From Phycisphaeraceae bacterium (GTDB lineage Bacteria > Planctomycetota > Phycisphaerae > Phycisphaerales > Phycisphaeraceae), in contig JADLFV010000068.1 in assembly GCA_020849625.1 (NCBI GenBank), positions 1-64,000 of the forward strand: a stretch of 64,000 nucleotides of DNA. The letters are read 5' to 3'. A program made the translations under genes and the position numbers. Below, in pieces: positions 1-62,582 of the stretch. The notes beneath the pieces were generated by a model, which saw only the letters and a list, made by a program, of their open reading frames with translations, was not told the DNA's origin and ran no database searches. Each line of letters begins with the position of its first letter. Positions within the stretch are counted from its first letter, which is position 1.

Positions 1-195
1 GGGGCGGAGGCTGACAGGCGCGTCGCCTACCGGCTCTATGGGGCCTTGCCGACGCTGGCCTTCCTGATGTGTCGCTTCGCTGCGCGCGTGGCGGGTCTGG
101 GCCGATCGGATCCGTCATGCGCCAGCGCGGCGAATTTTCAAATGTCGAATGTCGAATTTCGGATTTCGTATGTTCGCGCAGTGCGGCTGGGATAA
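1..195 (+). CDS. Possible 3' end of an unrecognised gene (cut by window edge)
   Basis: Frame 1 is open from the first base to a TAA at 193-195, giving 64 codons. The first half reads like protein (RLYGALPTLAFLMC, hydrophobic, then Arg-rich). The last 20 or so codons come from the short-period repeat that starts near 131. Ending inside such a repeat also happens to hisS and other genes here, so a real gene end is plausible. No family was recognised, and the upstream part is missing. Confidence 0.3.
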   Translation, partial: GAEADRRVAYRLYGALPTLAFLMCRFAARVAGLGRSDPSCASAANFQMSNVEFRISYVRAVRLG

Positions 196-230
196 ATCGA
201 TCGCAAATCGAAAATCGAAATTCGCAAATC
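131..230. repeat. Short-period repeat palindrome, unit like AATTTCG/AATGTCG
   Basis: The left arm (about 131-170) repeats AATGTCG and AATTTCGG. The right arm (about 200-230) repeats AAATCG and AAATTCGC, which is the complement of the same unit. The arms can fold on each other around a spacer of about 30 bp. The element ends 3 bp before the stop codon of the minus-strand PEP-CTERM gene, so it could act as its 3' hairpin. One of the family described in the findings. Confidence 0.8.
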
Positions 231-232
231 AT

Positions 233-880
233 TTACGTTCTGCGTCGATGCGTCAGCGATGTCGTCATCAGCGCCATGAGCAGGGCAGCGGTCGCGGGTT
301 CGGGGATCAGGACGGTGATGCGATCGACGCCGAACTCGCCCTGGATGGGGTCGGGGGCCTGGGCGTAGGGAGACAGGTCATGTCGGAACATGATGCGATC
401 GGTGTTGGCCAGGGCGTCGGCGAAGGAATCGGAGCCGATGATCTGAACCCAACCGGCGGGGGTGGTCAGGTCCACGCTGTGCGGCGACCAATTGTCGGTG
501 GCCGGTGCGAAGGCGGCGGTAGCCAGCCAGAAGTTGCTGTCATTGCCGAGGACGAAATGGATTTCGAGGTTGTCATCGGCGCCGACGTCTTTGAGGTAGA
601 ACGAGAAGCCGGTGACACCCGCAGCGGTGAGGTTGCCGGTGAAATGGGGCAGGTTGCTGTAAGCGGCGAGCGAACCTGGGGACGAGGTGGCGATCTGGAG
701 GAAGCCATCGGCGGCGCCGCCCACGCCGCCGGTTGCGACATGGGAAACGATCGCTCCACCGGCAAAGCCCGCAACACCGGAGCCAAACTCCTCCACATAG
801 CCGGGCGTGACCGCGTGAGCGTTGAGAGCCAGCAGACACACAACACAACCAAGGCCGTTGGAGTGACGGATGGTAGACAT
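233..880 (-). CDS. PEP-CTERM sorting domain protein
   Basis: Secreted protein of 215 aa. Residues 1 to about 23 form a signal peptide with probable cleavage after NAHA. The last 24 residues are a PEP-CTERM tail: IPEP, then a hydrophobic stretch (TAALLMALM), then HRRR. Known biology: such tails are recognised by an exosortase, which removes them during export to the envelope or matrix. The middle is beta-rich and resembles general PEP-CTERM passenger domains; no enzyme motif is visible. The ATG at 880 is preceded by GGAGG at 888-892 with 7 bp spacing, so it is preferred to the TTG one codon upstream. No exosortase gene lies in this window. Confidence 0.85.
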   Translation of the reverse strand: MSTIRHSNGLGCVVCLLALNAHAVTPGYVEEFGSGVAGFAGGAIVSHVATGGVGGAADGFLQIATSSPGSLAAYSNLPHFTGNLTAAGVTGFSFYLKDVGADDNLEIHFVLGNDSNFWLATAAFAPATDNWSPHSVDLTTPAGWVQIIGSDSFADALANTDRIMFRHDLSPYAQAPDPIQGEFGVDRITVLIPEPATAALLMALMTTSLTHRRRT

Positions 881-1075
881 CAATAAACCTCCGAAGTAAC
901 GGGTTTTCTTTTTCGGGCGGCCGGTGAGCGGATCGAGTCAGGACATTGCGGGACGTGCTGGTCGGCGGGGAGATGTCATGGTCCTGGCGGATGCTTCGAA
1001 GCTGACCGGCGGGGCAAACGTTCAGATCGGACCCTATATTTTTGGCCGGGAATTTGCGGAGTCAAGAGGGCGACT

Positions 1076-1200
1076 GTTGATTTTGGATCGTCAATCAAAA
1101 ATCCTAACCGTGTGATTTCTCATCGCCACGGCCGATAAACCGGCCTCAGCCGCGGCTGTTGAAAAAGGGCACGATTGGCAATCAAAAATCCTCCATCAAC
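1076..1200. repeat. Imperfect inverted repeat with short A/T-rich units
   Basis: Left arm 1076-1112 (GTTGATTTTGGATCGTCAAT and following) faces right arm 1172-1200, which carries ATTGGCAATCAAAAATCC and ends CATCAAC. The arms fold on each other imperfectly, and both repeat AATCAAAAATCC-type words. A GC-rich centre separates them. It lies in the 412-bp divergent gap between the PEP-CTERM gene and the TPR/alpha-CTD gene. I see no convincing gene in the rest of that gap (884-1292), which should hold both promoters. Confidence 0.55.
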
Positions 1201-1292
1201 ATTCAAACTCCCCTCCTTCCCTCTCCGTTTGCCCTTGGCGGGCCGCCGGATTAGCCTATGTGGCTCGTATAACACACTTTGAGGAACTGTTC

Positions 1293-2232: not shown

Positions 2233-2346
2233 CAAAGTGAAAAGTGGAAAGTGAAAATATGAAACTTGGGAGCCGAAGCAGAGTTTTTCACTTTGGAGCG
2301 GCTTCGCCGCTGTTGCGTCCGTCACTTTGCGCTTTTCACTTTTCGC
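2233..2346. repeat. Short-period repeat palindrome, unit AAAGTG(G/A)A
   Basis: Left arm 2233-2262 repeats AAAGTGA, AAAGTGG and AAAGTGA. Right arm about 2320-2346 (CACTTTGCGCTTTTCACTTT) is its complement. The palindrome overlaps the start of the next gene and encodes most of its signal peptide. Confidence 0.8.
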
Positions 2347-4654: not shown

Positions 4655-4672
4655 GGGAGCAGGAAAGAAGAC

Positions 4673-4733
4673 GGAGAGCCGAGAGCAGAAGGCGGATAGT
4701 ATGATTTCTGCTCTCTGCTCTCTGCTCTCTGCC
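4673..4733. repeat. Short-period repeat palindrome, unit GAGAGC(A/C)
   Basis: Left arm GAGAGCCGAGAGCAGAAGGC (4675-4694) faces right arm CTGCTCTCTGCTCTCTGCTC (from about 4709), made of the complementary unit. It lies 5 bp from the stop codon of the minus-strand hotdog gene and could also end its transcript. Confidence 0.8.
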
Positions 4734-4738
4734 CCCTC

Positions 4739-5272
4739 TCAGTCCTCCAACTTCTCCACGTTGCGGATCAGGTGCATGAACTGTTCGGTGAAGACGAAGT
4801 TTTCTTTGGGGAACTTCAAGCCGGAGCGGTTGCTGTCGATGTGGCTGAACATCAACTCGATGTCCGCTAGTTTGCGAGCTTCACCCGTGGCCGGGTCGAT
4901 CAATTCGGTGACGCCGGAGGTCGAAGCCCCGCTGGCGTCGTAGCGGACCATCTCGGCGCTGTGGCGGATGGTGAAGCCGGGCCGGGGCTGCACGGCGACG
5001 TCGAAGACGGCTTTGCCGATCTTGGCCAGGATCACTTTTTCCTTGAAGTCACCGGCATGTCCGACCAGGATGCCCGCGGTCTGGGCCATGCCTTCGATGA
5101 TCAGCGAGTGCGGCATCAGCGGGCGAGGTGGCTGCGGCGCACTTTCTGCACTTCCGGGGGCGGGGGCGAAGTGATCGTGCAGCACGTCCTCGGCCGCGCT
5201 GATGTTCTTCAGCGCCACCAGCTTCGCGCCGCGCTTCAACTCGAGGATGCGATCAATCCAGATCCAACGCAT
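4739..5272 (-). CDS. FabA/FabZ-like hotdog-fold 3-hydroxyacyl-ACP dehydratase
   Basis: A 177-aa protein of the beta-hydroxyacyl-ACP dehydratase family. The active-site region reads HDHF followed by PLMPHSLIIEGMAQTAG, matching the family pattern HFPG-PxMPGVLxxEAMAQ. Compared with that pattern, about 15 Pro/Ala-rich residues are inserted between HF and PLMP. They are encoded by a 25-bp inverted repeat holding the CTTCCGGGGG motif. The Glu and Gln of the second motif remain. ATG 5272 is chosen because residues further upstream are repeat-encoded. It is the last gene of a minus-strand cassette with an acyl carrier protein and a second hotdog gene, so a role in making an unusual acyl chain is inferred. 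Confidence 0.8.
   Translation of the reverse strand: MRWIWIDRILELKRGAKLVALKNISAAEDVLHDHFAPAPGSAESAPQPPRPLMPHSLIIEGMAQTAGILVGHAGDFKEKVILAKIGKAVFDVAVQPRPGFTIRHSAEMVRYDASGASTSGVTELIDPATGEARKLADIELMFSHIDSNRSGLKFPKENFVFTEQFMHLIRNVEKLED
5150..5168 (+). repeat. Dispersed 19-mer ACTTCCGGGGGCGGGGGCG, copy 1
   Basis: Identical 19-mers occur at 5150, 6612 and 52695, all in coding sequence. Here it lies antisense in the hotdog gene, flanked by CACTTC and GAAGTG, which are themselves inverted repeats. Confidence 0.85.
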
Positions 5273-5273: not shown

Positions 5274-5372
5274 GGAAGGCACCAAGGCACCGAGGTACCA
5301 AGGCACCGAGATAGGGCATTCGAGGACCATTACCAAATCCTTGGTCCCTGGGTGCCTTGGTGCCTCGGTCCT
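5274..5372. repeat. Short-period repeat palindrome, unit GGCACCAAGGCACCGA
   Basis: Left arm (5274-5311) repeats GGCACCAA, GGCACCGA and GGTACCAA. Right arm (5341-5372) carries GGTGCCTTGGTGCCTCGGTC, the complement. It fills the gap between the acyl carrier protein stop and the next gene start in the same operon. An RNA hairpin here could weaken expression of the downstream hotdog gene. Confidence 0.85.
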
Positions 5373-6231: not shown

Positions 6232-6340
6232 GGGAAGGCACCAAGGGACCGAGGCACCGAGGCACCAAGGGAAAGAATCAGAGGTCACATCGCAGGCCCT
6301 TGATGCCTCGGTGCCTTGGTGCCTTGGTGCCTTCTTCCTT
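6232..6340. repeat. Short-period repeat palindrome, unit GGCACCAAGGGACCGA
   Basis: Left arm (6235-6272) repeats GGCACCAA, GGGACCGA and GGCACCGA. Right arm (6303-6332) repeats GGTGCCTT and TGCCTCGG. It has the same unit as the element at 5274-5372, about 900 bp away. It occupies the divergent gap between the FabZ-like gene and galK and ends 12 bp before the galK ATG. Confidence 0.85.
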
Positions 6341-9021: not shown

Positions 9022-9030
9022 AGGTTTATA

Positions 9031-9110
9031 GCCACGAGCCATGAGCGACGAGCCATGTGGAGCAGGAATGCATCTCGCCTGGTGGCTCGTGGCTGATGGC
9101 TCATGGCTGA
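9031..9110. repeat. Short-period repeat palindrome, unit GAGCCATGA/GAGCCACG
   Basis: Left arm GCCACGAGCCATGAGCGACG (9031-9050) faces right arm GGTGGCTCGTGGCTGATGGC (from 9081) and TCATGGCT. It separates the CYTH gene from the next gene on the minus strand. The stop codon and last two codons of that gene fall in the right arm. Confidence 0.85.
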
Positions 9111-12308: not shown

Positions 12309-15300
12309 TCACTTCGCGCCCAACTGCTCCAGCACGCGCGCCCGTTCCGCCTCCACGCGGGCCAGCTCGTCGCGGGTCTGCTGCACCAGGTGAGCGGGGG
12401 CCTTGTCCACGTAACCCTTGTTGTTGAGCCGCACCCGGAAGGCTGCGATGCATTTGTCCAGTTCCGCCAGGCGTTTTTCCAATCGCTGGCGCTCGGCTTC
12501 CGTGTCGGCTGCATGGTGCAGATATATTTCACCGATTGCGCGCACCGCCGTCACCGCGTCGGCTGGTTTGGCAGCTTCGGGGCCGACGTCGATCAGCTTC
12601 ACGTTGGCCAGTGCCTCGATCAGACCCTGGAACTCCTGCACGGCAGCCGCGGTCTTGATGGTGACATCGAACGTCTGCCGCGGGGGCAGGCTGGATTGGG
12701 TGCGGGCTTCGCGGATCATGTTGACCAGCTCGCGCAACTGCTCGAACTGCTGCTCGGCCGCCTCGTCGCGCAGTGTCACATCGACCCTGGGCCAGGCCGC
12801 TTTGACCAGCAATTCGCCTGCTGGCAATGCGAGTCCTTCGACGCCGCGCTGCGGATAGATGTCGTTGAGCGCTTCGTACAGCCGCTCCGTGACAAACGGC
12901 ATCGCGGGATGCAGCAACCGCAGCGACACGTCGAGGACTGACGCCAGCACTCTTTGTTGGATCGAATTAGTTTCCACCGTCGGCTTGATGGCCTCGATAT
13001 ACCAGTCGCACACGTCGCCCCAGATAAAGTGGTACAGATCGTCGGCGTAATTGTGGAAGTCATACGCATCCAGTGAGCGTGTGGTCTGCTCCGTGATCTG
13101 GGCAATGCGCGAAAGGATCCAACGATCGGGGAGAGCGGGTATCGGGTATCGGGTATCGGGTGTCGGGTTTGTGTTCAGTTTGCTGAGCGCAAAGCGCGTC
13201 GCGTTCCACAGTTTGTTGGCGAAGTTGCGGCCGTAGTCGAACTTCTCACTGGTGTTACGAGCCGCGGGCATGTCTTTGGTGGGCGTTGCTTCGCCGGAGG
13301 CCACGCCGTAGGACGAAACCATCTTTTCGCCCTTATGTTCTTGAATAGGTTGCGCCACCTTGTAGCCGTTGGATAGCGTCTTGTACTTGGGCTCGAACGG
13401 CTCACCACTTGCGGGGGCGACGCATTCGACCGGCAGACGCACGTCCTGCGTGTGCGTGGTCATCTGGGCCAGCGTGAAGCGCATGGCGTCGGAGCCGTGC
13501 GAGTGGATGATGTCCACCGGATCGACACCGTTGCCGAGCGATTTGGACATCTTCTGACCATGCCCGTCCTGGATCATGGCGTGAATGAACACGTCACGGA
13601 ACGGCAGTTGCCCCCGGAAGTAGAGGTTGAACATGACCATGCGCGACACCCAGAGCGTGATGATCTCGCGGGCCGTGCACAGCACGTTGGTGGGGTTCCA
13701 CGTTTTCAGTTCCGCGGTGTCGTCCGGCCAACCCAGTGTGGACAGGGGCCAAAGGGCGCTGCTGAACCAGGTGTCGAGAACGTCGGGGTCTTGGGTGTAA
13801 CCTGCCTTTTCTAGAACTGCTATGACTTCGTCGTCATTCTCGTAGTGCACGCAGACAAATGTCCCTGGATCTACAGAAGCGGTTTCTCCACCTGTCATCA
13901 AGCGACCGGCACCACGTGCAATACGACCCTCATTATCCCACTGATTCAGTTGGGATACAAAGCTACTCTGTTCACCTGCACGATAAGATTCAGCAGGTTC
14001 ACCAACTCTTGACCACACCGGAATACGATGGCCCCACCAGAGTTGGCGGCTGATGCACCAGTCGCGGATGTTGCGGTGCCACTGCTCGAAGGTCTTGGCG
14101 TAACGCTCGGGGGTGAAGGTCAGGATGTCTGATGTCTGATTGCTGATTGCTGATGTGTCGGAAGCGGGGGCGTCGCTGCGCTGCTTGGGGTTCATCGCTT
14201 GTAACGCGGCACCGGCTAGCTTGGGGTCGGTGACTTTCACGTACCACTGATCGCTCAGATACGGCTCGATCGCGGCGTGGCTGCGATAGCTGTGGCCCAC
14301 GGCGTGGCGGTAGGGGCGGATCTCTTCCATCAGGCCATGATCTTTGAACCAGCGCACGATCCACTTGCGGGCGTCCTCGCGCGACAGGCCCAGCAGCGGC
14401 TGGCATTCCTCGCTTGAATCATCCCAGCCATGTTGATTGGAGATCGATGCGTCGGGGGCCATGACGTTGACGATCGGCAGATTGTGGCGCTTGCCGATGT
14501 CGTAGTCGTTGGGGTCGTGGGCGGGGGTGACTTTCAAAAAGCCCGAAGCGTATTTGGCTTTGGGGTCATCGCTGTCGGGATTGGGAATCACCACGTAGTC
14601 GTCGCCGATGATGGGGATGCGGCGGTTGACGATGGGGAGGATGACGTGCTTGCCGATCAGTGCGGCGCGTGCGGTGTCCTTGGGGTTCACGGCCACGGCG
14701 GTGTCGCCGAGCATGGTTTCGGGGCGGGTGGTGGCGACGGTGACGTAAGGTGGATCGACGGCCGATGAATCGGCCTCCGCCAGGGGGTAGCGCATGTAGT
14801 AGAAGTTGCCGTCGATTTCCTCCATCTCGACTTCGTCGTCAGCGAGCGCTGTCTGCGTGATCGGGTCCCAGTTGACCAGGCGTTTGCCGCGGTAAATCAA
14901 TCCCCCCCGGAAGAGTTGGAAAAAGGCTTCACGAACGGCTTTAGCGCACTGGTCGTCCATGGTGAAGCGCTGGCGCTCCCAGTCGCAGGAGCAGCCCATG
15001 ACCTTGAGTTGATCGGTGATGCGCTTTTCGTATTCATCCTTCCATTTCTGGATGCGGGCGATGAACTGGTCGCGCGTGAAGTCGGTGCGCTTCCTGCCTT
15101 CTTCCTGCAGCACGCGCTTTTCCACCACGGTCTGGGTGGCGATGCCGGCATGATCGGTGCCGGGCATCCACATGGCGTTGTCGCCGAGCATGCGGTGATA
15201 GCGGATGAGGATGTCCTGCAGCGTGTTGTTCAGGGCATGGCCCATGTGCAGGGCGGCGGTGACGTTGGGCGGCGGGATGACGATGCTGTAAGGGGCTCCA

Positions 15301-15416
15301 GCAGCATCAGGTATCGCATGGAACGCGCGGGCGGAGTCCCAGCGCTTCGCGATTTCGGTTTCGACATCCTGCGGACGATATTGCTTGGCGAGTTCGTGAG
15401 GCATGGTGAGTGTCAT
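12309..15416 (-). CDS. valS: Valyl-tRNA synthetase
   Basis: A 1035-aa class I synthetase that charges tRNA-Val. PPPNVTAALHMGHALNN is the HIGH motif near residue 50, and KMSKSLGNGVDP the KMSKS loop. The CP1 editing domain, anticodon domain and C-terminal coiled coil (LEKRLAELDKCIAAFRVRLN) are present. Three oddities: two stretches of short-period repeat are translated in frame (13136-13172, giving TRYPIP, and 14123-14158, giving SNQTSD); codons around 13800-14010 have much lower GC than the rest; and residues around 13250-13440 look like an added segment. The start is next to a repeat palindrome and no ribosome site is visible; ATG 15404 is an alternative. Confidence 0.95.
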   Translation of the reverse strand: MTLTMPHELAKQYRPQDVETEIAKRWDSARAFHAIPDAAGAPYSIVIPPPNVTAALHMGHALNNTLQDILIRYHRMLGDNAMWMPGTDHAGIATQTVVEKRVLQEEGRKRTDFTRDQFIARIQKWKDEYEKRITDQLKVMGCSCDWERQRFTMDDQCAKAVREAFFQLFRGGLIYRGKRLVNWDPITQTALADDEVEMEEIDGNFYYMRYPLAEADSSAVDPPYVTVATTRPETMLGDTAVAVNPKDTARAALIGKHVILPIVNRRIPIIGDDYVVIPNPDSDDPKAKYASGFLKVTPAHDPNDYDIGKRHNLPIVNVMAPDASISNQHGWDDSSEECQPLLGLSREDARKWIVRWFKDHGLMEEIRPYRHAVGHSYRSHAAIEPYLSDQWYVKVTDPKLAGAALQAMNPKQRSDAPASDTSAISNQTSDILTFTPERYAKTFEQWHRNIRDWCISRQLWWGHRIPVWSRVGEPAESYRAGEQSSFVSQLNQWDNEGRIARGAGRLMTGGETASVDPGTFVCVHYENDDEVIAVLEKAGYTQDPDVLDTWFSSALWPLSTLGWPDDTAELKTWNPTNVLCTAREIITLWVSRMVMFNLYFRGQLPFRDVFIHAMIQDGHGQKMSKSLGNGVDPVDIIHSHGSDAMRFTLAQMTTHTQDVRLPVECVAPASGEPFEPKYKTLSNGYKVAQPIQEHKGEKMVSSYGVASGEATPTKDMPAARNTSEKFDYGRNFANKLWNATRFALSKLNTNPTPDTRYPIPALPDRWILSRIAQITEQTTRSLDAYDFHNYADDLYHFIWGDVCDWYIEAIKPTVETNSIQQRVLASVLDVSLRLLHPAMPFVTERLYEALNDIYPQRGVEGLALPAGELLVKAAWPRVDVTLRDEAAEQQFEQLRELVNMIREARTQSSLPPRQTFDVTIKTAAAVQEFQGLIEALANVKLIDVGPEAAKPADAVTAVRAIGEIYLHHAADTEAERQRLEKRLAELDKCIAAFRVRLNNKGYVDKAPAHLVQQTRDELARVEAERARVLEQLGAK
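13136..13172 (-). repeat. In-frame short-period repeat in valS, unit GGGTATC
   Basis: GGGTATC is repeated about three times and followed by GGGTGTC and GGGTTTG. Read on the minus strand it encodes [12 protein letters not shown]. The unit is the same as the smc insertion at 58054-58190, but only one arm is seen here. Confidence 0.85.
14123..14158 (-). repeat. In-frame short-period repeat in valS, unit GATGTCT/GATTGCT
   Basis: GATGTCT twice, then GATTGCT twice, then GATG. It encodes SDTSAISNQTSDI on the minus strand. The same unit forms the palindromes at 15417-15503 and 27825-27920. Only one arm is seen here. Confidence 0.85.
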
Positions 15417-15503
15417 GTCTGAAGTCTGATTGCGGATTGCTGATGTAGGAATGAGGATTGAGGCGATTTCTGAACATCAGCAATCAGCAATCAGACATCA
15501 GAG
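15417..15503. repeat. Short-period repeat palindrome, unit GTCTGATTGCTGAT
   Basis: Left arm GTCTGAAGTCTGATTGCGGA (15417 on) faces right arm ACATCAGCAATCAGCAATCA ending near 15503. It fills the whole gap between ffh and valS, touching the valS ATG on one side and the ffh stop on the other. Confidence 0.88.
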
Positions 15504-15504
15504 A

Positions 15505-17019
15505 TTACTTTCGTTTTTTACGCTGTTTGTACTTGGATTTCTGCGGTTTGGAGCCGCCGCGGAGGCTGACGCCGCAGCCGCGGGAGCCCATGGCGGCGGC
15601 CATATCTGCGCCGCCGAGGCCGCGCATGGCTTTGAGTCGTGACCACATGCCCATGCCGGACATCTGCTTGCTGAGTTTGCTGACCATCTCGAAGCCGCGC
15701 ACCAGTTGGCTGACGTCCTTGGCGTCGCTGCCCGAGCCGCGCGAGATGCGGCGGCGTCGGGAGTTGTTCAGCAGATCAATGTCCTTGCGCTCGGCGGGCG
15801 TCATGGACTGAATGATCGCTTCTGTGCGATTGATCTCGCGGTCGTCGAGGTTGAGGTCTTTGAGCTGTGAACCGATGCCGGGAAGCATGCCCAGCAGCGA
15901 TTTCATGGAGCCCATCTTGCGGATGGTGCGAAGCTGGTTGAGGAAGTCATCCATGGTCATCTTGCCCGCAGCCATCTTTTCCTGCAGGGCGAGTGCTTCC
16001 TCCTGGCTGACTTCGGCCTGGGCTTTTTCCACCAGGGAGACGACGTCGCCCATGCCGAGGATGCGCGAAGCGATGCGCGGAGCGTGGAACGCTTCGAGGG
16101 CATCGAGCTTTTCACCGACGCCCATGAACTTGATGGGTTTGCCGGTGATCTGGCGGACGGTGAGCGCTGCGCCGCCGCGGGTGTCGGAGTCGAACTTGGT
16201 CAGGATCACGCCGTCGAGTTCGAGCTGATCGTTGAAGGCTTTGGCGCTGTTGACAGCGTCCTGGCCGGTCATGGCGTCGATGACCAGGAAGATCTGGTGC
16301 GGGTTGACCGCGCGTTCGACCTGGCGCAGTTCGTTCATCAGGTCGTCGTTGACGTGCAGGCGGCCGGCCGTGTCGAGGATCAGCACGTCACAACCCTGGC
16401 TGCGGGCGTCAATCACCGCATTACGTGCCACCTGCACGGCGGCGCCGATCGCTTTGCCATACTCAGCGACCTTGTCCAGTTCGCCGTGGAAGAGCACCTT
16501 TTCACCGCCCCCGGAAGGGATCTCTTCGTTGACCTGATCGACCAGCACCTGTAGCTGCGTGACAGCAGCGGGTCGCTGCAGGTCGGCCGCAGCGAGCATG
16601 ACGCGCTTGTTTTTCTTTTTCAGATAGGCAGCGAGTTTGCCGCAGGTGGTGGTTTTACCCGAGCCTTGCAGGCCGGACATCATGATGATGGTGGGCCCGG
16701 GTTCGACGTAGAGGATGGGCGGCCGTTCTGCACCGCCTTCCTCGATCACCTCCTGGCCGCCGATCAGCGCGACCAGTTCGTCATAGACGATCTTGATCAT
16801 CTGCTGAGCGGGGCGCAGCGACTGGAGCACTTCAGAGCCGATCGCTTTCTGCACGATCGCATCGCAGAACTGCTGGACGACCTCGTAGTGGACGTCAGCC
16901 TCGAGCAGGGCGGTGCGGACTTCTTCCATGGCCTCGCGGACATTGGACTCGCTGATGCGGCCGCGGCCGGAGAGCTGGCGCAGGGCGTTTTCAAATTTTT
17001 CGGACAGGTGACTGAGCAT
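15505..17019 (-). CDS. ffh: Signal recognition particle GTPase Ffh (SRP54)
   Basis: A 504-aa SRP protein that binds 4.5S RNA and signal peptides for co-translational targeting to FtsY and SecYEG. Order: N domain; G domain with P-loop GLQGSGKTTT, DTAGR, and TKFDSDTRGG; then a Met-rich M domain (MGSMKSLLGMLPGIG, RRRRISRGSG, KLSKQMSGMGMW) and a basic tail (KQRKKRK). The RNA-binding Ser-Arg-Gly core is visible as RISRGSG. ATG 17019 begins the conserved MLSHLSEKFENAL. A CTTCCGGGGG motif (antisense decamer) encodes the loop IPSGGGEK. Gap 17020-17201 is a divergent promoter region. Confidence 0.96.
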   Translation of the reverse strand: MLSHLSEKFENALRQLSGRGRISESNVREAMEEVRTALLEADVHYEVVQQFCDAIVQKAIGSEVLQSLRPAQQMIKIVYDELVALIGGQEVIEEGGAERPPILYVEPGPTIIMMSGLQGSGKTTTCGKLAAYLKKKNKRVMLAAADLQRPAAVTQLQVLVDQVNEEIPSGGGEKVLFHGELDKVAEYGKAIGAAVQVARNAVIDARSQGCDVLILDTAGRLHVNDDLMNELRQVERAVNPHQIFLVIDAMTGQDAVNSAKAFNDQLELDGVILTKFDSDTRGGAALTVRQITGKPIKFMGVGEKLDALEAFHAPRIASRILGMGDVVSLVEKAQAEVSQEEALALQEKMAAGKMTMDDFLNQLRTIRKMGSMKSLLGMLPGIGSQLKDLNLDDREINRTEAIIQSMTPAERKDIDLLNNSRRRRISRGSGSDAKDVSQLVRGFEMVSKLSKQMSGMGMWSRLKAMRGLGGADMAAAMGSRGCGVSLRGGSKPQKSKYKQRKKRK

Positions 17020-25672: not shown

Positions 25673-25676
25673 GGTC

Positions 25677-43150: not shown

Positions 43151-43209
43151 GTGGATCGCCCGTGTGGTTGTTTTCCAAATCTAAAATCGCAAATCTAAAA
43201 TCTAAAATT
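43110..43209. repeat. Short-period repeat palindrome, unit AATCTAAA
   Basis: Left arm GATTTTAGATTTTAGATT (43124-43141) and AATTTTG face right arm AAATCTAAAATCGCAAATCT (from 43177) and AAAATCTAAAATT. Spacer about 35 bp. It contains the start codon and leader of the pseudopilin and ends 5 bp before the preceding gene's stop. Confidence 0.88.
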
Positions 43210-43213
43210 CCCC

Positions 43214-45436
43214 TCACTGTCCTTCCCCTTCGAAGTACGTCGCATAATCCGCCTTCAGTTCGATGGGGCCGAGGATGCCGTCGGGCAGTGGGATGGTGGG
43301 GTCGTAGCGGACCTGGATGACGCCCATGCCGTTGGCGGGCAGTTCGGCCTCCAGGTCGCCGGAGCTGGAGGGGAAGTAGCCGAGGGTGGTGTTGAAGTTG
43401 GGGCTGGTGTCGCCGAGCACGGGGCTGGTGTTGGCCTGGGGCAGGAAGGTGGTCAGGATGGTGCCGTTGATCTTGACCTGGCCGCGCATGTCCAGCACGC
43501 CGGCCACGATGGTGCCGCTGAGCTGCACGGTTTCGCCGGCATCCTGGGGATCCTGGAAGGTGCCCATCTCGATGGAGAAGTTGGGCGTCAGCAGTGTGGA
43601 ACGCTGGAACAGTTTCTTGTCATCGGGATCGGTCACCGCATCCAGATCGAAGCGCGTGGCGCCGGTGAAGGTCAGCTTGTTGCGGATGTGGCTGAAGTCC
43701 GCAGGGGTGCTGGAGACAATTGAGCCCTGGAAGACGCAGTCGTGGAAGCGGATGTTGTTGCCCATGTCCTTGGTGCTGGTCAGACCCGGGTAGAGCTGCT
43801 GGAAGTAGGCGTCGATGTCCGGGTGCTTGGGCGTGCCGGAGCTGTCCTCCCAGATGCCGCAGTAGTTGAAGGCATTGATGGACGGATCGGTGGGGTGGGG
43901 GATGAAGTTGTTGATATCGCTCTGGACGAATGTGACGCCCTTGAAGACGCAGTTGATGAACAGGGCGTTGGTGCCCTGGGGAATGCGAACGTTCTCGAAG
44001 GTTTTGTTGCTATAGACCGGCCGCTCGTAGAAGTCGTAGGGGTGAGCCGAGCCGAAGGGCACCGCTTCGACCACGGTCGAGCCGTCCGGCGAGGCCTGCG
44101 TAGCCAGATCGGTGCTGGCCATGCTCTCGTAGGTGTCGGTGTCGAAGTCCTCAGCCTCGAAGTCGTAGGTTTCTTGACTGTCCGACTCGAAGGTCAGGGC
44201 ATCCTCATTATGATTGGGCTTGAGGGGACCCTGGAGGTAGGGCTGATACGGTCCCTCGGCGGCGCCGTTTTCCCAGTCGTCCATAGCCGCCGTGACGTCG
44301 ATGCGGCCGCGAATCTTGGCATAGCGATCGCTGTTGCTGATGACGCCGTCACCGAAGCCCACGCGGTTGGGTGAGCCGAAGGTGTCGATCAGTTCCATGA
44401 TCTGCTGGGCGGCCACGGTGCTGACCGCCTCGTCCTCCAGTTCAAACAGGGACACCTGCTTGTCGCCGCTGGTGTCGAAGGCTTCCAGGAAGAAGTCGTA
44501 GTCGTCGATGTAGCCGTCGCCGCTGACATCGAGGCTCTGGGGATCGGAGATGCCGTCGGTCTCCAGGGCGTTGTAAACGTGCAGGCGGTTGTCGCCGTCC
44601 TGGTCGTTGGACTTAAGGGTTTCGACCAGCAAGTCCAGCCGGGCGTCGAGGCCATCAGGCCCGGAGTCGGAGTCGAGTCCGCGGAAGTCGCTTTCGATCT
44701 GCACGGGGTGGCCGTTGGGCAGGTGTACGTCCAAAAAGCGTGAGCCAATGGCGCCGTCGATCAGCACGTTGCGTCCGACCATGACGCGGCTCTTGGCCAG
44801 GATGGCGTAACGGATCTTCTTGTCCATCTTGAAGTCGATGCTGATGGTGCGGAAGATGCGGCGTCCTGCGGGCCCGTCAGCGCCGGTGACCTTGACGCGA
44901 ATCCAGGTCGCATCGAGGGGATTGGAGTTGCTGACGCCCATGGTGCTGTAGGGCGGGCGATCATAGTAGTCGCTGTCGTAGTCCTCGCCGGGCAGGGGGT
45001 GCGGTTCGAGCGTGGCTTCGAAGGTGGGGGTGTCGCCGGGGCTGATGGGCACCGCCGGGACGTGCAGCACCTGGCCGTCGATGTAGAGGTTCAGACCGGT
45101 GAACTGGTCATCGCTGGCCAACTCGTTGGCCAACTCGTCGGCGACCAGGGGCCAGAGGTTCTGGGCCAAGCTGTGGTCGATGATGCCCATGCTGGTCTTG
45201 ACCTGGTGGGCAGCCTCGTCAATGCGATAGATCAGAAACTGCACGCCGGTTTCCGCCGCCGCCAGGGCCCGATTCATCTTCAGGTGCGAGTCCGCCGTGC
45301 GCAGGTTGCCCTGCGAGACGATGGCCATGGCCGCCGCCAGCGAAGCGAAGATGACCAGGAACATCATGGCCAGAATCGCGCCGGCGCCGTGACGTCGTCG
45401 GCGCGAAAATCGAGTTGTGCGATCAGCCGCACCCAT
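43214..45436 (-). CDS. Large PilX-like membrane-anchored protein with EF-hand-like loops
   Basis: A 740-aa protein. Basic N-terminus then a membrane helix (AILAMMFLVIFASLAAAMAI) followed by GNLRTADSHLKMNRALAAAE, the layout of PilX-type pilus-assembly proteins. Residues about 275-335 hold calcium-loop-like motifs (DQDGDNRLHVYN, DVSGDGYIDDYDFF, DTSGDKQVSLFE) of dockerin or EF-hand kind. The C-terminal half is beta-rich, with repeated short turns (FINCVFKGVTF, FHDCVFQGSIV) like a parallel beta-helix. The ribosome site AGGA for ATG 45436 lies inside a repeat arm. It is in the pilus cluster; a surface or pilus-tip role is inferred. Confidence 0.75.
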   Translation of the reverse strand: MGAADRTTRFSRRRRHGAGAILAMMFLVIFASLAAAMAIVSQGNLRTADSHLKMNRALAAAETGVQFLIYRIDEAAHQVKTSMGIIDHSLAQNLWPLVADELANELASDDQFTGLNLYIDGQVLHVPAVPISPGDTPTFEATLEPHPLPGEDYDSDYYDRPPYSTMGVSNSNPLDATWIRVKVTGADGPAGRRIFRTISIDFKMDKKIRYAILAKSRVMVGRNVLIDGAIGSRFLDVHLPNGHPVQIESDFRGLDSDSGPDGLDARLDLLVETLKSNDQDGDNRLHVYNALETDGISDPQSLDVSGDGYIDDYDFFLEAFDTSGDKQVSLFELEDEAVSTVAAQQIMELIDTFGSPNRVGFGDGVISNSDRYAKIRGRIDVTAAMDDWENGAAEGPYQPYLQGPLKPNHNEDALTFESDSQETYDFEAEDFDTDTYESMASTDLATQASPDGSTVVEAVPFGSAHPYDFYERPVYSNKTFENVRIPQGTNALFINCVFKGVTFVQSDINNFIPHPTDPSINAFNYCGIWEDSSGTPKHPDIDAYFQQLYPGLTSTKDMGNNIRFHDCVFQGSIVSSTPADFSHIRNKLTFTGATRFDLDAVTDPDDKKLFQRSTLLTPNFSIEMGTFQDPQDAGETVQLSGTIVAGVLDMRGQVKINGTILTTFLPQANTSPVLGDTSPNFNTTLGYFPSSSGDLEAELPANGMGVIQVRYDPTIPLPDGILGPIELKADYATYFEGEGQ

Positions 45437-45498: not shown

Positions 45499-46078
45499 AC
45501 TTCGGCACGACCCACGACAACTGCGTGAGCGTCATGGGGCTTTCGTCGTTTGGACCCTGATAGCTGACGGTCACCGTGACCCGTACCATGTCGGTGGACC
45601 CGATGGCGAACGTGGTGCTGGAGGCCAGGTTGCTGGGCAGCACGCCTTCAACCATCACGAACTGCGTCCAGCCTTCCATGTTGGGAATGACCTGGCGCAG
45701 GGCGTTGACCGGCGGATTGATGGTCAACCCCGCGCCCATGCCGGAGGGATTGACGATGCCGGCAAAATCATCGAGGTCGTCGTAGTCCTCGATGTCCGGC
45801 TCGTTGAGCTCGGGGCCGAGGGTCGAGGCGTGACTGAGCGGATCGTGCAGCGGCAGCGGCAGCGTCAACTCGCGGATTTCATTGGCCAGCAGCATGGCGG
45901 TGCCGGTGTGCTGGGCCCAGTCATTTTTCTGGTGGTACGCCTGCTGAGCGGCCACGATGGCCAGCACGCCGGTGCCCACGATGACCGTGGTCAGCGCCGC
46001 CTCGATGAGCGTGAAGCCGGCGGCGCGGCGGTGCCGCGACGATGGCGGATGGCGGATGGCGGATGGCGGATGGTGCAT
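45497..46078 (-). CDS. Minor pseudopilin (PilV/GspI-like)
   Basis: A 193-aa prepilin-like protein. Type III signal RRAAGFTLIEAALTTVIVGT, cleaved after Gly. The first 20 or so residues (MHHPPSAIRHPPSSRHRR) are unusually long for a leader and are encoded by the GATGGCG repeat. The rest is beta-rich, ending MTLTQLSWVVPK. It lies between the PilX-like gene and GspF. ATG 46078 has AAGG about 8 bp upstream; the open frame continues to 46213 through the repeat spacer, but that part is not protein-like. Confidence 0.82.
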   Translation of the reverse strand: MHHPPSAIRHPPSSRHRRAAGFTLIEAALTTVIVGTGVLAIVAAQQAYHQKNDWAQHTGTAMLLANEIRELTLPLPLHDPLSHASTLGPELNEPDIEDYDDLDDFAGIVNPSGMGAGLTINPPVNALRQVIPNMEGWTQFVMVEGVLPSNLASSTTFAIGSTDMVRVTVTVSYQGPNDESPMTLTQLSWVVPK

Positions 46079-46212
46079 GGCCGAACCTTTTTTCTCAAAA
46101 ATAACTTTACGATTCATTCCAGCCACGAGGTAATGGAACCATGCAAGACCGAGAACTTGGCGGCTTACCCAACCGCTACAATCCGCCATCCGCCAGCGCC
46201 CATCCGCCATCA
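46041..46212. repeat. Short-period repeat palindrome, unit GATGGCG
   Basis: Left arm GATGGCGGATGGCGGATGGC (46041 on) continues to GGATGGTGC. Right arm ATCCGCCATCCGCCAGCGCC with CATCCGCCATCA ends at 46212. The spacer of about 105 bp is A/T-rich and without a gene. It overlaps the 5' end of the pseudopilin gene and the stop codon of gspF. Confidence 0.88.
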
Positions 46213-51893: not shown

Positions 51894-51906
51894 TAGCGGC
51901 CCCCGG

Positions 51907-51990
51907 AATAGCGGATAGTCGATGGCGGATGTACAACATATTCGTCGTCCGTTACCCGATCCATCTGCCATTTGCCATCTTCCATCTGCC
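51907..51990. repeat. Short-period repeat palindrome, unit GATGGCGGAT/CCATCTGC
   Basis: Left arm ATAGCGGATAGTCGATGGCG with GAT (51908-51930) and right arm ATCCATCTGCCATTTGCCAT with CTTCCATCTGCC (51959-51990). The right arm runs directly into the rnpA ATG. Confidence 0.78.
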
Positions 51991-52356
51991 ATGCCTCAGT
52001 ATCCCTTCCGTCGCCGACATCGCCTTTCCGGCCGCAGTGCTTTCGCGGTGGTGTTTGCCTCGGGCCTGCGCTGCCGGGGCGGGCCGTTGCGCTTTCACGG
52101 GCGGGTCAACGGCCTGGAGCACTGGCGCCTGGGACTGAGCGTGTCGCGACAGGTGGGCATCAGCGTCGTCCGCCACCACATCAAGCGGCTGTTGCGCGAG
52201 GCGTTTCGCCTTTCCGCAGCCGAGTTGCCTCTTGTTGAAGGCCACGGTTGCGACCTGGTGATCGTGGTGCGGGCCCATGAAACGCAGAGTCTGGCGGAGT
52301 ATCGCAGGCTGCTGGTCGAAGCGGGTCGGAAGCTGGCCCGGCAGGCGGCGAACTGA
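51991..52356 (+). CDS. rnpA: Ribonuclease P protein component
   Basis: A 121-aa basic protein. RRRHRLSGRSAFAVVFASGL is the N-terminal part; SVSRQVGISVVRHHIKRLLR matches the RNR motif region (usually KxVxRNxxKR; here RHHIKRLLRE), and DLVIVVRAHETQ is the following strand. Known role: protein subunit of RNase P, 5' maturation of tRNA. It is not next to rpmH, dnaA or yidC, unlike in most bacteria. The ATG directly follows a repeat arm, so the usual ribosome site has been replaced. Confidence 0.88.
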   Translation: MPQYPFRRRHRLSGRSAFAVVFASGLRCRGGPLRFHGRVNGLEHWRLGLSVSRQVGISVVRHHIKRLLREAFRLSAAELPLVEGHGCDLVIVVRAHETQSLAEYRRLLVEAGRKLARQAAN

Positions 52357-57500: not shown

Positions 57501-58465
57501 TCGGCGATGGCGTCCTCGTGTTCCTTCAGTTGCCGGGCGGCGCGGGCGCGGTCGGCCTCGGCCTGCTCCAGTTGATCAGCCAAGGCAGCCAACTGCGTCT
57601 GCAGGCGGTGATGCTCGCAGAGTGAGTCAACCAGTTGCAGTTCGTGCAGGCGCTGCGTGTGTTCCTGGAATGAGCGGGCGCGGGCGGCCTGCATCTTGAC
57701 GCTGCGCAGGCGGCGCTCGGTGTCTTCCAAACGGGTGCGGACCAGGGCCAGATTCTGCTCGGTCTTTTCCAGGTGACGGGCGGCTTCCTTCTTGCGGGCC
57801 TTGAAACGGCTGATCCCGGCCGCCTCCTCGAAGATTACGCGGCGCTGCTCGGGATTGGAGTCAAGCATCTGGGCGACTTTGCCCTGCTCGATGACGCTGT
57901 AAGCGTCGGTGCCGATGCCGGTGTCCATGAACAGTTCGCGGATGTCGCGCAGGCGGACGCGGCGGCCGTTGATCAGGTACTCGCTGGTGCCGTCACGGAA
58001 AAGCTGGCGGGTGACGGCCACGGTGTCCAGATCGACGGGCAGAGCGCGGGAGGGTCGGGTATCGGGTATCGGGTTTCGGGTTTCGGATTTTGCATCCGAG
58101 GCTTCGCCGGACGGCTCAGCCTGCAGCTTCTGCGTGGATTCGGGACCATCAGCTTCCTCCCGATACCCGATACCCGATACCCGATACCCGTTGTCTTTGA
58201 TCACCGGATTATCGAAGGTCAACGTCACGCTGGCCATGCCGCAGGGTTTGCGGGTGGCGGATCCGTTGAAGATCACGTCCATCATGGCCCCGCCGCGCAG
58301 GCTCTTGGCCGACTGCTCACCGAGGACCCATTTGATGGCATCGACAATATTGCTTTTGCCGCAGCCGTTGGGCCCGACAATGCCGACGATGGGCGGATCG
58401 AAGGGAATCTCGGTCCGGTTGGCGAACGACTTGAAACCGGCGAGTGTAAGCTTGGCCAGACGCAT
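54596..58465 (-). CDS. smc: Chromosome segregation protein SMC
   Basis: A 1289-aa SMC ATPase. [15 protein letters not shown] at the N-terminus with Walker [15 protein letters not shown]; two coiled coils (about residues 240-560 and 760-1090) around a hinge (residues 570-720, [20 protein letters not shown]); signature [17 protein letters not shown] and Walker [20 protein letters not shown]. Known role: chromosome condensation and segregation with ScpAB. It is about 100 aa longer than usual; part of the excess is a 45-50 residue insertion in the N-terminal head encoded by a repeat palindrome (58054-58190). Confidence 0.96.
58054..58190 (-). repeat. Short-period repeat palindrome inserted in frame in smc, unit GGGTATC
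   Basis: Left arm 58054-58091 (GTCGGGTATCGGGTATCGGG and TTTCGGGTTTCGG) faces right arm 58154-58190 (CCCGATACCCGATACCCGAT and ACCCG). On the coding strand the arms give [10 protein letters not shown] and [12 protein letters not shown] around a spacer of about 25 residues. It separates LTFDN from [15 protein letters not shown], which adjoin closely in typical SMC heads. Confidence 0.9.
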
Positions 58466-60409: not shown

Positions 60410-60505
60410 CGGCATCACCTCGGACCAGGGGGAAAACGGACCTGTGGGCGGGCAGATCATTGTCCCCGTCCGGGTGGGGACGGTCAAGCTGCCGCTGAAG
60501 CGGCG

Positions 60506-60630
60506 GAAATTCGAATGACGAAATTCGAATGACGAATCAATGTTCGAATGACGAATGCTCCGAGTTTGGTCTTCGTCATTGGAATTTCGACATTGTTTCG
60601 TCATTCGGATTTTGTCATTCGAATTTCCCG
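60506..60630. repeat. Short-period repeat palindrome, unit TTCGAATGACGAA
   Basis: Left arm ATTCGAATGACGAAATTCGA with ATGACGAATC (60509 on) faces right arm CGTCATTGGAATTTCGACAT with TCGTCATTCGG (60573 on). It fills most of the gap between the PhyH gene stop and the lipoprotein start. Confidence 0.88.
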
Positions 60631-60644
60631 TTTCCAGGCGGGCC

Positions 60645-61487
60645 TCAGTGGTAGGTCAACGGCTTGACGAAGTCGCCCTCGTAGCCGCAGGGGCCGCCAC
60701 CGGTGCTGGCCTGATAGCTGATTTCGCTGCCGTCGAAGGCCAGGATGGGCAGGTAGAACCTGGCGACGGTGTGGCTGGAGCGGGGCATGTAGTGGCAGAT
60801 GAAGGATCGCCGCCAGCGGTCCTTGGAGCGGTTGGGCCCGGAGCCGTGGATCAGCGAGCCGTTGAAGAACAGTACGTCGCCGGGCTGCATGTCCGCGGGC
60901 ACGGCCTTCATGCCCTTGGGCGGGTTGACCAGGTGGGTGGTGAAGCTCCTTGTCAGATCCGCCTGATCGGGGCAGATCAGGTCGATTTTGTGCGTGCCGG
61001 GCACGACCATGAGGCCGCCGTTTTCGGTATCCACGCGGTCGATGGCGGTCCAGGCGGCAATGCAGTTGCCGGGTGTGACTTCGAGGTAGAAATTGTCCTG
61101 GTGCAGGGCCTGGCCGCGTGAGCCGGGGGCCTTGAAGTAGTACATGCTCTGGCACGCGACCGCCTCTTCGGCGAACAGTTGCTCCAGCACATGGCCCACG
61201 CGCGGGTCGAGCATCATGCGCCTGGACCAGTCGTCGAAGCGGTGCGGGTGCAGCACCCGTGGATAGCGGGCCAGGGGGTCGTCTTTGCCGATGGTGGCGC
61301 TGGAGGGATCGGGCGTCCAGTGCCCGGGCACCGGCTCGTTGCGTTCAGCCAGGTCGTCGAAGAAGCGGCGGGTGCGCTCCACCTGCTGCTCGTTGAACAG
61401 GCGGGGCACGATCAGGTAGCCGTCCTTGTCGTAGTCAGCCAACTGCTGGGCTGTCAGGGTGAGGCGGTTGCTCGTGGCGGTCAGCAT
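60645..61487 (-). CDS. Phytanoyl-CoA dioxygenase family (PhyH) oxygenase
   Basis: A 280-aa Fe(II)/2-oxoglutarate oxygenase. DYDKDGYLIVPRLFNEQQVE starts the fold; ALHQDNFYLE supplies the HxD iron ligands and FNGSLIHGSGPNRS the distal His; RRSFICHYMPRS holds the 2-oxoglutarate Arg region. The substrate is unknown; planctomycetes carry many such enzymes, often next to AraC regulators. ATG 61487 is preceded by GGAGCG. Divergent from the AraC gene with 130 bp between starts, so probably its target. Confidence 0.9.
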   Translation of the reverse strand: MLTATSNRLTLTAQQLADYDKDGYLIVPRLFNEQQVERTRRFFDDLAERNEPVPGHWTPDPSSATIGKDDPLARYPRVLHPHRFDDWSRRMMLDPRVGHVLEQLFAEEAVACQSMYYFKAPGSRGQALHQDNFYLEVTPGNCIAAWTAIDRVDTENGGLMVVPGTHKIDLICPDQADLTRSFTTHLVNPPKGMKAVPADMQPGDVLFFNGSLIHGSGPNRSKDRWRRSFICHYMPRSSHTVARFYLPILAFDGSEISYQASTGGGPCGYEGDFVKPLTYH

Positions 61488-61617
61488 AGGGGTCGCTCCG
61501 GGCGTGCTTGGATGACGCTGAAAAGTTAGAATGATTCTGCCCTGTTGACCATGACCGCAATGGTCAATCAGATAGACATTCCTGCCATCGCCCGATTCGG
61601 TATGATGGAGAGCCGTC

Positions 61618-62433
61618 ATGGAACTGGAATCTCTTAAAGTGTTTCATGTCGGACATTTTCATCATTTTCCCAGTCACCTGACTGAGCGCGATCAGCCCAA
61701 GGACAACCTGATCATCTGGGTCATCGGCGGACGAGGCTGGGCACGCAGCAATGATCGCAAAGTCGATGCTCAGACCGGCTCACTGTTGCTGTTTGAGAAG
61801 GGCGTGCCCCATGGTTACGGCAGTGACCAGCAGCAGCCCTGGGACATCGTCTGGTCTCATTTCGACGGCTCTGAAGCGGTCGCTTACCTCAATGCCTTGC
61901 GCGAGGCTGGCGGCGACATGCTGCGGGTGCGCCTGGGACTGGACGAGGTCATCCGGCAGCGCTGGATGGAGATGCTGGTGGTGCAGGAAACCGCCGGGCC
62001 TCAGTTGTGCTCGCACCTGCTGCACGGGGCGCTGGGCCTGATGATCCGCCGCCTGCAATTGCTGCAACTGCACCCAGCCCCCGCTCAACTGGAGACGATC
62101 CAACGCCTGCAGCGCTGGATCGGCGAGCATCTGTCCGAGCCGATCAGCATCGAGCAACTGGCCAAGATCGCCTGCACCTCGCCGCGGCAGCTCTCGCGCC
62201 TGTTCGCCCAGGCGGTCAACAGCAGTCCCATGCGCTACGTCATCGATCAGCGCATCGCCCGGGCCTGCGTCATCCTCAGCGAGTCTTCCGCCTCCGTGCA
62301 GCAGGTGGCTTATGCGGTGGGCTTCGACAATCCGTACTATTTTTCCCGCCAGTTTCATCGCCGCATCGGTTGCAGTCCCAGCGAATACCGGGCCCAGCGC
62401 CAGGGCAGCGGCGAGCACGCAAGGTGGCTATGA
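61618..62433 (+). CDS. AraC-family transcriptional regulator
   Basis: A 271-aa regulator. N-terminal cupin-like sensor (LIIWVIGGRGWARSNDRKVD, GSLLLFEKGVPHGYG, a sugar-binding-type pattern). The C-terminal pair of HTH motifs is intact: ISIEQLAKIACTSPRQLSRL, and QQVAYAVGFDNPYYFSRQFH ending GCSPSEYR. The 130-bp region upstream is shared with the divergent PhyH gene and includes GACCATGACCGCAATGGTC (61548-61566), an imperfect inverted repeat that could be its operator. The inducer is unknown. Confidence 0.92.
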   Translation: MELESLKVFHVGHFHHFPSHLTERDQPKDNLIIWVIGGRGWARSNDRKVDAQTGSLLLFEKGVPHGYGSDQQQPWDIVWSHFDGSEAVAYLNALREAGGDMLRVRLGLDEVIRQRWMEMLVVQETAGPQLCSHLLHGALGLMIRRLQLLQLHPAPAQLETIQRLQRWIGEHLSEPISIEQLAKIACTSPRQLSRLFAQAVNSSPMRYVIDQRIARACVILSESSASVQQVAYAVGFDNPYYFSRQFHRRIGCSPSEYRAQRQGSGEHARWL

Positions 62434-62462
62434 TGCACTCGCGGGGTATGACCCGCCAGGCG

Positions 62463-62582
62463 GGAAATTCGAAACTCGAAACTCGAAATAAATCCCAAAC
62501 CCCAAAGTTCACCCTGGTACGGCTTTTCCTGTTCGAGTTTTGAGTTTATTTCGAGTTTCGAGTTTCGGATTTCGAGTTTTTG
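62463..62582. repeat. Short-period repeat palindrome, unit TCGAAACTCGAAA
   Basis: Left arm GAAATTCGAAACTCGAAACT with CGAAATAAATCCCAAA faces right arm GAGTTTATTTCGAGTTTCGA with GTTTCGGATTTCGAG. The spacer of about 30 bp has no gene. It lies between the AraC gene and the aminotransferase gene. Confidence 0.88.

Follow-up and report, generated by a model that had tools for sequence, protein, structure and literature searches.

The stretch of 64,000 nucleotides analysed here, referred to as the window, comprises positions 1 to 64000 of contig JADLFV010000068.1 of a Phycisphaeraceae bacterium (assembly GCA_020849625.1), whose genome of 4.82 Mb is in 154 contigs and 96% complete. Between and within its genes, among them valS, ffh, hisS, ileS and smc, the window carries palindromic elements in which two arrays of a short unit, most often a heptamer, face each other across a spacer. 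Our own scan found 24 arrays with periods of 6 to 9 bp (20 of period 7, three of period 8 and one of period 9), and Tandem Repeats Finder (TRF) reported facing 7- and 8-bp arrays throughout the window. No array was found in any of five first-order Markov resamplings or, with the same script, in 100 kb of Escherichia coli K-12, and the window gave no match in Rfam at gathering thresholds. Genes were called with our own simple codon-usage caller, in which stops are reliable and starts uncertain.

An earlier note on this DNA had listed such facing palindromes, and we compared the inverted-pair score at its 19 coordinates with those of 200 shuffles of the same site. Palindromes were confirmed at 16 coordinates (131, 2233, 4673, 5274, 6232, 9031, 15417, 21978, 22650, 25677, 27825, 43110, 46041, 58054, 60506 and 62463), each of which beat all 200 shuffles; the shuffles were aligned half against half and the real sites whole, which gives a slight bias toward the real sites. 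The coordinate 51907 was borderline, and 20241 and 37785 are single arrays with apparent partners 384 and 454 bp away. The palindrome at 22650 is of another kind (CCCTCTCCC type) and has no heptad array. The features are as follows, with the score and the maximum of the shuffles in brackets:

134..229, facing palindrome, unit AATGTCG/CGAAAAT, the weakest accepted (14.5; 11.5)
2234..2342, facing palindrome, unit AAAGTGA (17; 11)
4663..4740, facing palindrome, unit GAGAGCA (16; 11)
5277..5365, facing palindrome, octamer AAGGCACC (23; 12.5)
6234..6334, facing palindrome, octamer AAGGCACC (32; 13)
9030..9108, facing palindrome, unit GAGCCAT/GAGCCAC (20; 11)
13136..13168, single array TCGGGTA within the valS reading frame, no inverted pair (TRF)
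14124..14156, single array GATGTCT/GATTGCT within valS, at a site of other inserts in relatives (TRF)
15412..15508, facing palindrome GATGTCT/GATTGCT, filling the intergenic gap from ffh stop to valS start (27.5; 9; fold z -7.8)
20253..20283, single array AGTAGGC; the partner at 384 bp is not accepted as a pair (TRF)
20675..20706, single array CCTACTG, ahead of the called hisS start at 20713 (TRF)
22000..22116, facing palindrome AGTAGGC, overlapping the hisS stop at 22008 and extending past it (21; 14)
22652..22766, palindrome of the other kind, CCCTCTCCC ... GGGAGAGGG (25.5; 12)
24483..24511, single array TCAAGCC within ileS, in a stretch variable among relatives (TRF)
25665..25814, facing palindrome AGTAGGC/AGTAGGG, immediately at the end of ileS, whose stop is at 25672 (25; 10.5)
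27826..27919, facing palindrome GATGTCT/GATTGCT, in a gap of convergent genes, starting past the stop at 27824 (20.5; 10; fold z -6.1)
37789..37819, single array AATGTCT (TRF)
38269..38300, single array CATTAGA (TRF)
43105..43215, facing palindrome ATTTTAG, right arm reaching a gene stop at 43214 (20.5; 10.5; fold z -5.0)
46041..46211, facing palindrome GATGGCG, with its end on the stop codon of a GspF/PilC-type gene, at 46210 (26; 13)
51905..51995, possible facing palindrome GATGGCG/CCATCTG, borderline (11; shuffle 99% value 10, maximum 12)
58056..58190, facing palindrome TCGGGTA, in frame in smc (54596-58465, minus strand; amino acids 93-138) (above all 200 shuffles)
60497..60634, facing palindrome, 14-bp compound unit GAAATTCGAATGAC (36; 14)
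62464..62573, facing palindrome CGAAACT of the AAACTCG subfamily, spacer conserved between copies (30; 11)

The genome-wide scans covered a 1.42-Mb set and then 2.19 Mb, or 45% of the genome. Sharing of a unit by facing arms was well above chance, as had been claimed: in the 1.42-Mb set, 178 of 258 arrays had an inverted partner with a score of at least 14 within 500 bp, while 15 had a direct partner and 15 paired when arrays were swapped in from another locus. The 2.19 Mb contained 341 short-period arrays (269 of period 7), which give 161 facing elements. Tallied per array and side at a score of at least 18, inverted and direct partners numbered 138:1 within 50 bp, 63:6 at 50-100 bp, 25:12 at 100-200 bp and 23:22 at 200-500 bp; facing is therefore a property of elements under about 200 bp. 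Because inverted and direct partners are about equally frequent beyond that distance, the partners at 384 and 454 bp were not counted as true pairs, and the candidate long-distance pairs 20253/20699 and 37789/38300 were rejected. The density of period-7 and period-8 arrays is 141 per Mb here versus 24 per Mb in the ileS neighbourhoods of 80 relatives. Among the best 80 of 457 ileS relatives, those ranking highest are Phycisphaeraceae metagenome-assembled genomes at no more than 65% identity, and other names are also present. Arrays without a partner of score at least 14 within 200 bp make up 119 of the 341, and are exemplified in the window by those at 24483 in ileS and at 13136 and 14124 in valS.

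That each locus has a different unit, as the earlier note put it, overstates the case. The 161 elements group into 57 unit classes, of which the four commonest occur 10 to 15 times each, and the stretch 46041..46211 alone has 59 matches across the genome. In the ten unit families with at least four members, from which identical CGCAGAG copies were excluded, the scores between the two arms of the same locus summed to 1682, versus a permutation mean of 1632.7 (sd 15.3), a sum reached in 4 of 2000 permutations. Mean scores with the arm of the same locus and with arms of other loci were 25.6 and 24.6 for GATGGCG and 23.4 and 24.0 for AAAATCT. The excess within loci is small, and the arms therefore behave as copies of a family, with local copying not the main process. 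Spacers are mostly unrelated even where arms agree, as 38 of 6105 spacer pairs exceeded the null maximum. Those pairs come mostly from the CGCAGAG copies and from one AAACTCG subfamily, in which spacers are alike at about 80-92%; both families have dispersed as complete elements with their spacers. An origin of spacers as recent copies of the genome's own DNA was rejected, as 87 of 115 spacers of at least 25 bp had no second place in the 2.19 Mb.

The anatomy of the elements is regular. Spacers have a median of 34 bp and range from 0 to 198 bp. Arm lengths are quantised, with peaks at 25 and 31 bp for period 7 and a small peak at 35-36 bp for period 8, which correspond to 3.5 or 4.5 units; period-9 arms measure 23-25 bp. 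The strand read inward is richer in G than in C in 131 elements and poorer in 22, with four tied (157 elements, after removal of four identical copies), and the same holds for 46 unit classes versus 10, with one tied. Such polarity (131 of 153 untied elements, 46 of 56 untied classes) is predicted if a template-driven polymerase extends both 3' ends at a break with the G-rich repeat and filler then links the extended ends, and this two-ended extension also predicts unique spacers, intact single arms and the absence of a duplication. Non-periodic inverted repeats, however, lean the same way, though less (174:117), and the families with conserved spacers would need another route; we regard two-ended extension as very unlikely.

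The CGCAGAG family provides an age series. The same palindrome of about 126 bp stands at five contig ends, and a genome search with a 127-base query found 25 places covering at least 100 bases, nine at 98-100% and 16 at 74-89%. Eight of the nine young copies sit at a contig break; since they end there, one insertion may be counted twice, and the six distinct right flanks together with one complete copy therefore represent at least seven insertions. In 11 older complete copies (of 20 cut out), identity to the young element was 0.88 and 0.81 in the two arms and 0.67 in the spacer, which fell below both arms in 10 of the 11, while the outer tips had 0.85 and 0.70; means over 12 copies, one of them a young copy truncated by a contig end, were 0.89 and 0.82 for the arms and 0.70 for the spacer. 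Matches to the arms only, with another spacer between them, occur at a few places (contigs C64, C40 and C21). The CGCAGAG elements have thus dispersed whole, and their arms outlast their spacer. This series can explain the appearance of older families, in which arms enclose unique spacers; intermediate ages are seen in CGCAGAG and not in most other families. By eye, five of 12 CGCAGAG copies with both flanks are bounded by TA on each side, which could be a duplication or part of the element.

The elements are also found within proteins. Inside called genes, and in frame, are 22 of the 161 elements, and family searches identify genes for CTP synthase, carbamoyl-phosphate synthase, a HisF-type protein, a ParA-type ATPase, a DnaX-type protein and an FKBP protein among their hosts. 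For SMC, 35 of 59 matching genomes align separately in the N-terminal part up to at most residue 95 and resume near residues 130-140, and the whole arm-spacer-arm stretch therefore consists of extra residues. When compared with E. coli K-12, the residues encoded by the element lie opposite a gap in 29 of 33 positions in CarB, 23 of 31 in HisF and 20 of 24 in PyrG. The possibility that the arms flank native DNA was rejected for SMC, CarB, HisF and PyrG, where most of the stretch including the spacer is extra; in the FKBP gene (locus L130, 1734-1995), the long spacer looks native by eye.

Between genes, the elements lie close behind stop codons. Among 129 elements in the 1.42 Mb, 70 of 89 edges next to a stop lay no more than 15 bp from it, compared with 23 of 97 edges next to a start. 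Arms in the window start, for example, at the stop codons of ileS and of the gene ending at 46210, past the one at 27824, and in the space that separates ffh from valS. Because stop codons are frequent in the arms, insertion itself may account for some of this proximity. A preference of insertion for the TA of stops was considered and rejected, with TAA and TAG accounting for 35 of 92 stops at elements versus 523 of 1477 elsewhere (p 0.65).

Such placement is consistent with hairpins selected by the host, as bidirectional terminators, stabilisers of mRNA 3' ends or sites of nucleoid proteins, whose sequence drifts while the fold is kept. Four elements folded as RNA reached z values of -5.0 to -10.5 versus shuffles, the lowest for the stretch 6232-6336 (-76.8 kcal/mol), and in the excerpts used here the authors of a Geobacter metallireducens study interpret similar pairs as sites for integration host factor (IHF) or HU (PMC2700814). 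Against selected hairpins, elements are not enriched in convergent gaps (11 convergent, 67 co-directional and 15 divergent elements versus 156, 664 and 139 gaps), and no clear T-run follows the arms (of 306, 18 within the first 12 nt and 13 within the following 12), so that neither the U-run behind the hairpin nor the excess at convergent ends that would mark intrinsic terminators is evident. The 22 elements inside genes also speak against them, as do six of eight relatives with neither array nor palindrome in the ffh-valS gap at the thresholds used. Hairpins kept for the host are, in our judgement, unlikely to be the explanation.

The same sites were compared in other genomes (denoted by G numbers); all 60 relatives searched are from genera other than that of the source genome. 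The SMC site holds TCGGGTA in the source genome and, at the corresponding position in the protein, a facing GATGGCG element in G013; 14 further loci found by motif have unrelated inserts of various length or none. At the valS site, the GATGTCT array of the source genome is matched by a facing GAGTCCG element in G041 and an octamer array, GAGGCACG, in G023. At the spot of that heptad array, G004 and G045 (loci L229 and L227) have an in-frame reading frame that matches Y1_Tnp (E about 1e-7), while other valS loci that were read carry inserts that differ in length and are unrelated (the motif matched 21 of 30 loci, that of the source genome included). In the ffh-valS gap, where the source genome has GATGTCT, the eight relatives with ffh upstream include G010 with a facing nonamer element, G007 with a single array and the six without either, one of which, G019, has a weak inverted repeat (score 12). 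In a distant family, G258 and G236, which belong to one genus and are 93% identical, have one arm in common in the moeA-lnt gap but neither the second arm nor the spacer; the element of G193 there is self-complementary and made of another unit. A further gap has an AGTAGGG array in G258 versus, by eye, a facing AAATTCC-type element in G193, and another has a nested palindrome in G258 and none in G193. At valS and at one further gap, a single array in one genome thus corresponds to a facing element of another unit in another genome. In G258, we also observed an AATTGGA palindrome nested in arms of the GGGAGTA kind (L302, 1350-1530), a composite of which parts have many matches in G236.

Genera therefore differ in the unit of the facing element at SMC, ffh-valS and moeA-lnt, with no element in other relatives, which bears out the view that the architecture is constant over many units while the sequence is not. 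These sites are either tolerant spots that were hit repeatedly or places where a unit was replaced in place. Repeated hits are favoured because transposase frames have also inserted in valS, and replacement in place also occurs, as the moeA-lnt pair kept one arm and changed the rest. The latter case is a point in favour of local hairpin-templated slippage, by which, as the earlier note suggested, a palindrome grows in place with one arm copied from the other; so is the slightly greater likeness of arms of the same locus (4 of 2000 permutations). That likeness is small, however, unit families recur genome-wide, two families have dispersed whole with their spacers, and at moeA-lnt the second arm did not follow the first. 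We consider slippage quite unlikely as the source of the elements, and the notion that a unit is copied in place together with its complement is not upheld.

The distribution of units extends to distant families. Of 294 planctomycete genomes, 14 contain the exact word AGTAGGSAGTAGGSAGTAGG, with 61 matches in the source genome, 52 in G221 and 16 in G236 (overlaps counted), the last two being from families distant to the source genome; in G258, also distant, the word forms a facing pair as well. The reversed pattern has no match in the source genome, G221 or G236.

Transposase searches covered the Y1 and DDE_3 families. The source genome has four Y1_Tnp matches, and Y1 transposases were found in all six genomes tested (the source genome and five others). 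Their presence, the Y1 frame at the same valS spot in two relatives, and a layout as in the repetitive extragenic palindromic (REP) doublets forming hairpins, or REPINs, described in excerpts of PMC3116915, would fit REPINs proper that are moved by the REP-associated tyrosine transposases (RAYTs) of the genome. Three of the four Y1 genes, however, bear short palindromes of their own on both sides, and none has heptad arms on both sides; the GTAG/CGTC tag was not seen at arms or flanks of the main families, except for the GTAG inside AGTAGG. A RAYT as partner was rejected, and REPINs proper appear highly improbable. The short palindromes beside the three genes (L199, L201 and L202) are of GGGGAGCCTCCCC, AAGGTTCCAGGAACCTT and GCCGCCGTCGCCGACGGCGG types; the fourth gene lies at a contig end, and about 750 bp from one of the four loci lies a single array. 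For an IS630 transposase as partner of CGCAGAG, the two of four IS630-type loci that were read gave no shared tips above the null. Both readable IS630-type genes (L186, 430-1000; L119, 2645-3355) have a heptad or octamer array at most about 250 bp downstream; these are two cases and may be due to chance.

On balance, we think it probable that the elements are many families of small non-autonomous mobile palindromes, similar to REPINs or to miniature inverted-repeat transposable elements (MITEs), that are moved in trans. What is seen directly is the dispersal of whole elements in two families, their insertion, the retention of arms in one family and the change of an array in place at one site. 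The typical element consists of an arm, a spacer and an inverted arm, mostly of about 60-200 bp overall, with each arm made of some 3.5-4.5 degenerate copies of a 7- or 8-bp unit, or fewer copies of a 9-bp unit, and with the G-rich strand as a rule facing inward. We propose that an unlinked enzyme acting on the hairpin may mobilise the elements in trans. Such an enzyme would need the arms, so that spacers would decay, and arms of short period would gain, lose and shift units, so that new unit families would keep arising. Placement behind stops and in tolerant loops of proteins would then be mostly what selection leaves.

Several observations weigh against mobile palindromes. No mobilising enzyme is linked to the elements. 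None of ten Y1 loci that were read (four in the source genome and six in five others) has heptad arms on both sides. Inverted arrays are not in excess at the distances of insertion sequences (56 inverted and 82 direct at 500-2000 bp). No target-site duplication was found, with direct repeats at the edges of 153 elements equal to the shuffled control, and the main families have no common flank. Most spacers are unrelated despite near-identical arms, and 87 of the 115 occur at a single place in the 2.19 Mb, for which the age of the elements alone is not an obvious explanation; one outer tip of CGCAGAG is as poorly kept (0.70) as the spacer. Unpaired arrays are as regular as paired ones (mean scores 17.7 and 17.9) and are therefore not what decayed doublets would look like. 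The reversed form of AGTAGGSAGTAGGSAGTAGG is present in five of the 294 genomes, and words of such kind are therefore not unique to one direction.

Like arrays also cluster locally in the source genome. At 2-4 kb, 38 inverted and 58 direct pairs were counted versus 16 in the control (inverted only), and over 500-4000 bp the arrays cluster as if they hop short distances. Elsewhere in the window, two unlike octamer arrays, ATTGCTTG then TTTCCTGT, stand in tandem order and do not face each other (45435-45497), and perfect or near-perfect tandem repeats of 15 and 21 bp at 34311-34366, 34835-34872 and 35203-35257 are unrelated to the palindromes.

Among known repeats, the short tandemly repeated repetitive heptamers of cyanobacteria are direct arrays that are abundant, intergenic and patchy in distribution like the elements here. 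The Rickettsia palindromic elements are likewise found in frame in protein genes, but are known from one lineage and are not known to have short-period arms. The elements had been described as unlike REP, MITE and clustered regularly interspaced short palindromic repeat (CRISPR) families. This stands for their sequence, which is unlike REP, and for CRISPR arrays, whose repeats are direct and whose unique spacers are equal in length, while the arms here are inverted and the spacers span 0-198 bp. It does not stand for layout: the elements share that of REPINs, with inverted arms and a spacer dispersed as a unit (138:1 within 50 bp; whole copies in two families), and as short, non-coding, multi-copy sequences with terminal inverted repeats they resemble MITEs, from which they differ in having no target-site duplication among 153 elements. 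In the excerpts used, REPINs have inverted, conserved short arms, a less conserved spacer, a hairpin, several groups, and both singlets and doublets (Bertels and Rainey, 2011; PMC3116915), all of which recall the elements here; these, however, have arms that are short-period arrays without a REP tag at the foot of the hairpin, no linked RAYT flanked by the same repeat, and single arrays that are not more decayed.

The closest counterparts are in Xanthomonas, where excerpts of Rehm et al. (2015; PMC4692102) describe GGGAATC heptads, mostly of four units, with 70 and 75 convergent pairs that form inverted repeats in two species; the heptads lie on average 28 nt from the upstream gene versus 160 nt from the downstream gene, 7-11% being inside genes. 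The elements here, too, are G-rich heptads in close convergent pairs near gene ends, and agree in four-unit size, polarity and greater closeness to the upstream gene. One unit is described there versus 57 unit classes here; GGGAATC, which with GGGANTN marks the unit there, is absent from the 50 of those classes that were listed. Those excerpts of the Xanthomonas account contain nothing on dispersal, on the ages of arms and spacers, or on in-frame insertion in core enzymes. According to excerpts of PMC2700814, G. metallireducens has arrays of four octamers or five heptamers, named global regulator binding sites of classes 1-3, of which class 1 consists of opposite-strand pairs at variable distance, and multicopy sequences that lie between and even within genes; the classes there are few, the units differ, and the sites are read as IHF/HU sites with no argument for mobility in those parts. 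The TAACTGA repeats of Beggiatoaceae, as far as excerpts of PMC4679880 describe them, are also abundant intergenic heptamer arrays that are patchy across phyla, and are direct repeats with a single inverted case.

Convergent heptad pairs (Xanthomonas), paired arrays of 7- and 8-mers (G. metallireducens) and the arm-spacer-arm logic of REPINs are therefore already known, as far as these excerpts go, and new in the source genome are the number of families, the age series, the in-frame insertions in core genes and the different units at orthologous sites. Among the matches listed from open-licence literature, no paper dealt with such elements in Planctomycetes. It is conceivable, though improbable, that the facing heptad arrays of Planctomycetes, Xanthomonas and Geobacter all belong to a single widespread class of genome parasites or repair scars. 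Their common rule (about four units, G-rich inward, flush behind stops) would then be set by a putative enzyme that adds an identical short repeat at either side of a gap, with arms rather than spacers being heritable and new unit families continually founded.

Published papers on heptamer arrays, in the parts used here, offer slippage, G-quadruplex or regulatory readings and leave the origin unsettled. The age series and the elements of different units at one point of an essential gene in two genera make the choice between slippage, transposition and function testable. The elements also account for odd low-complexity inserts in planctomycete core proteins, and supply a natural set of tolerant insertion sites.

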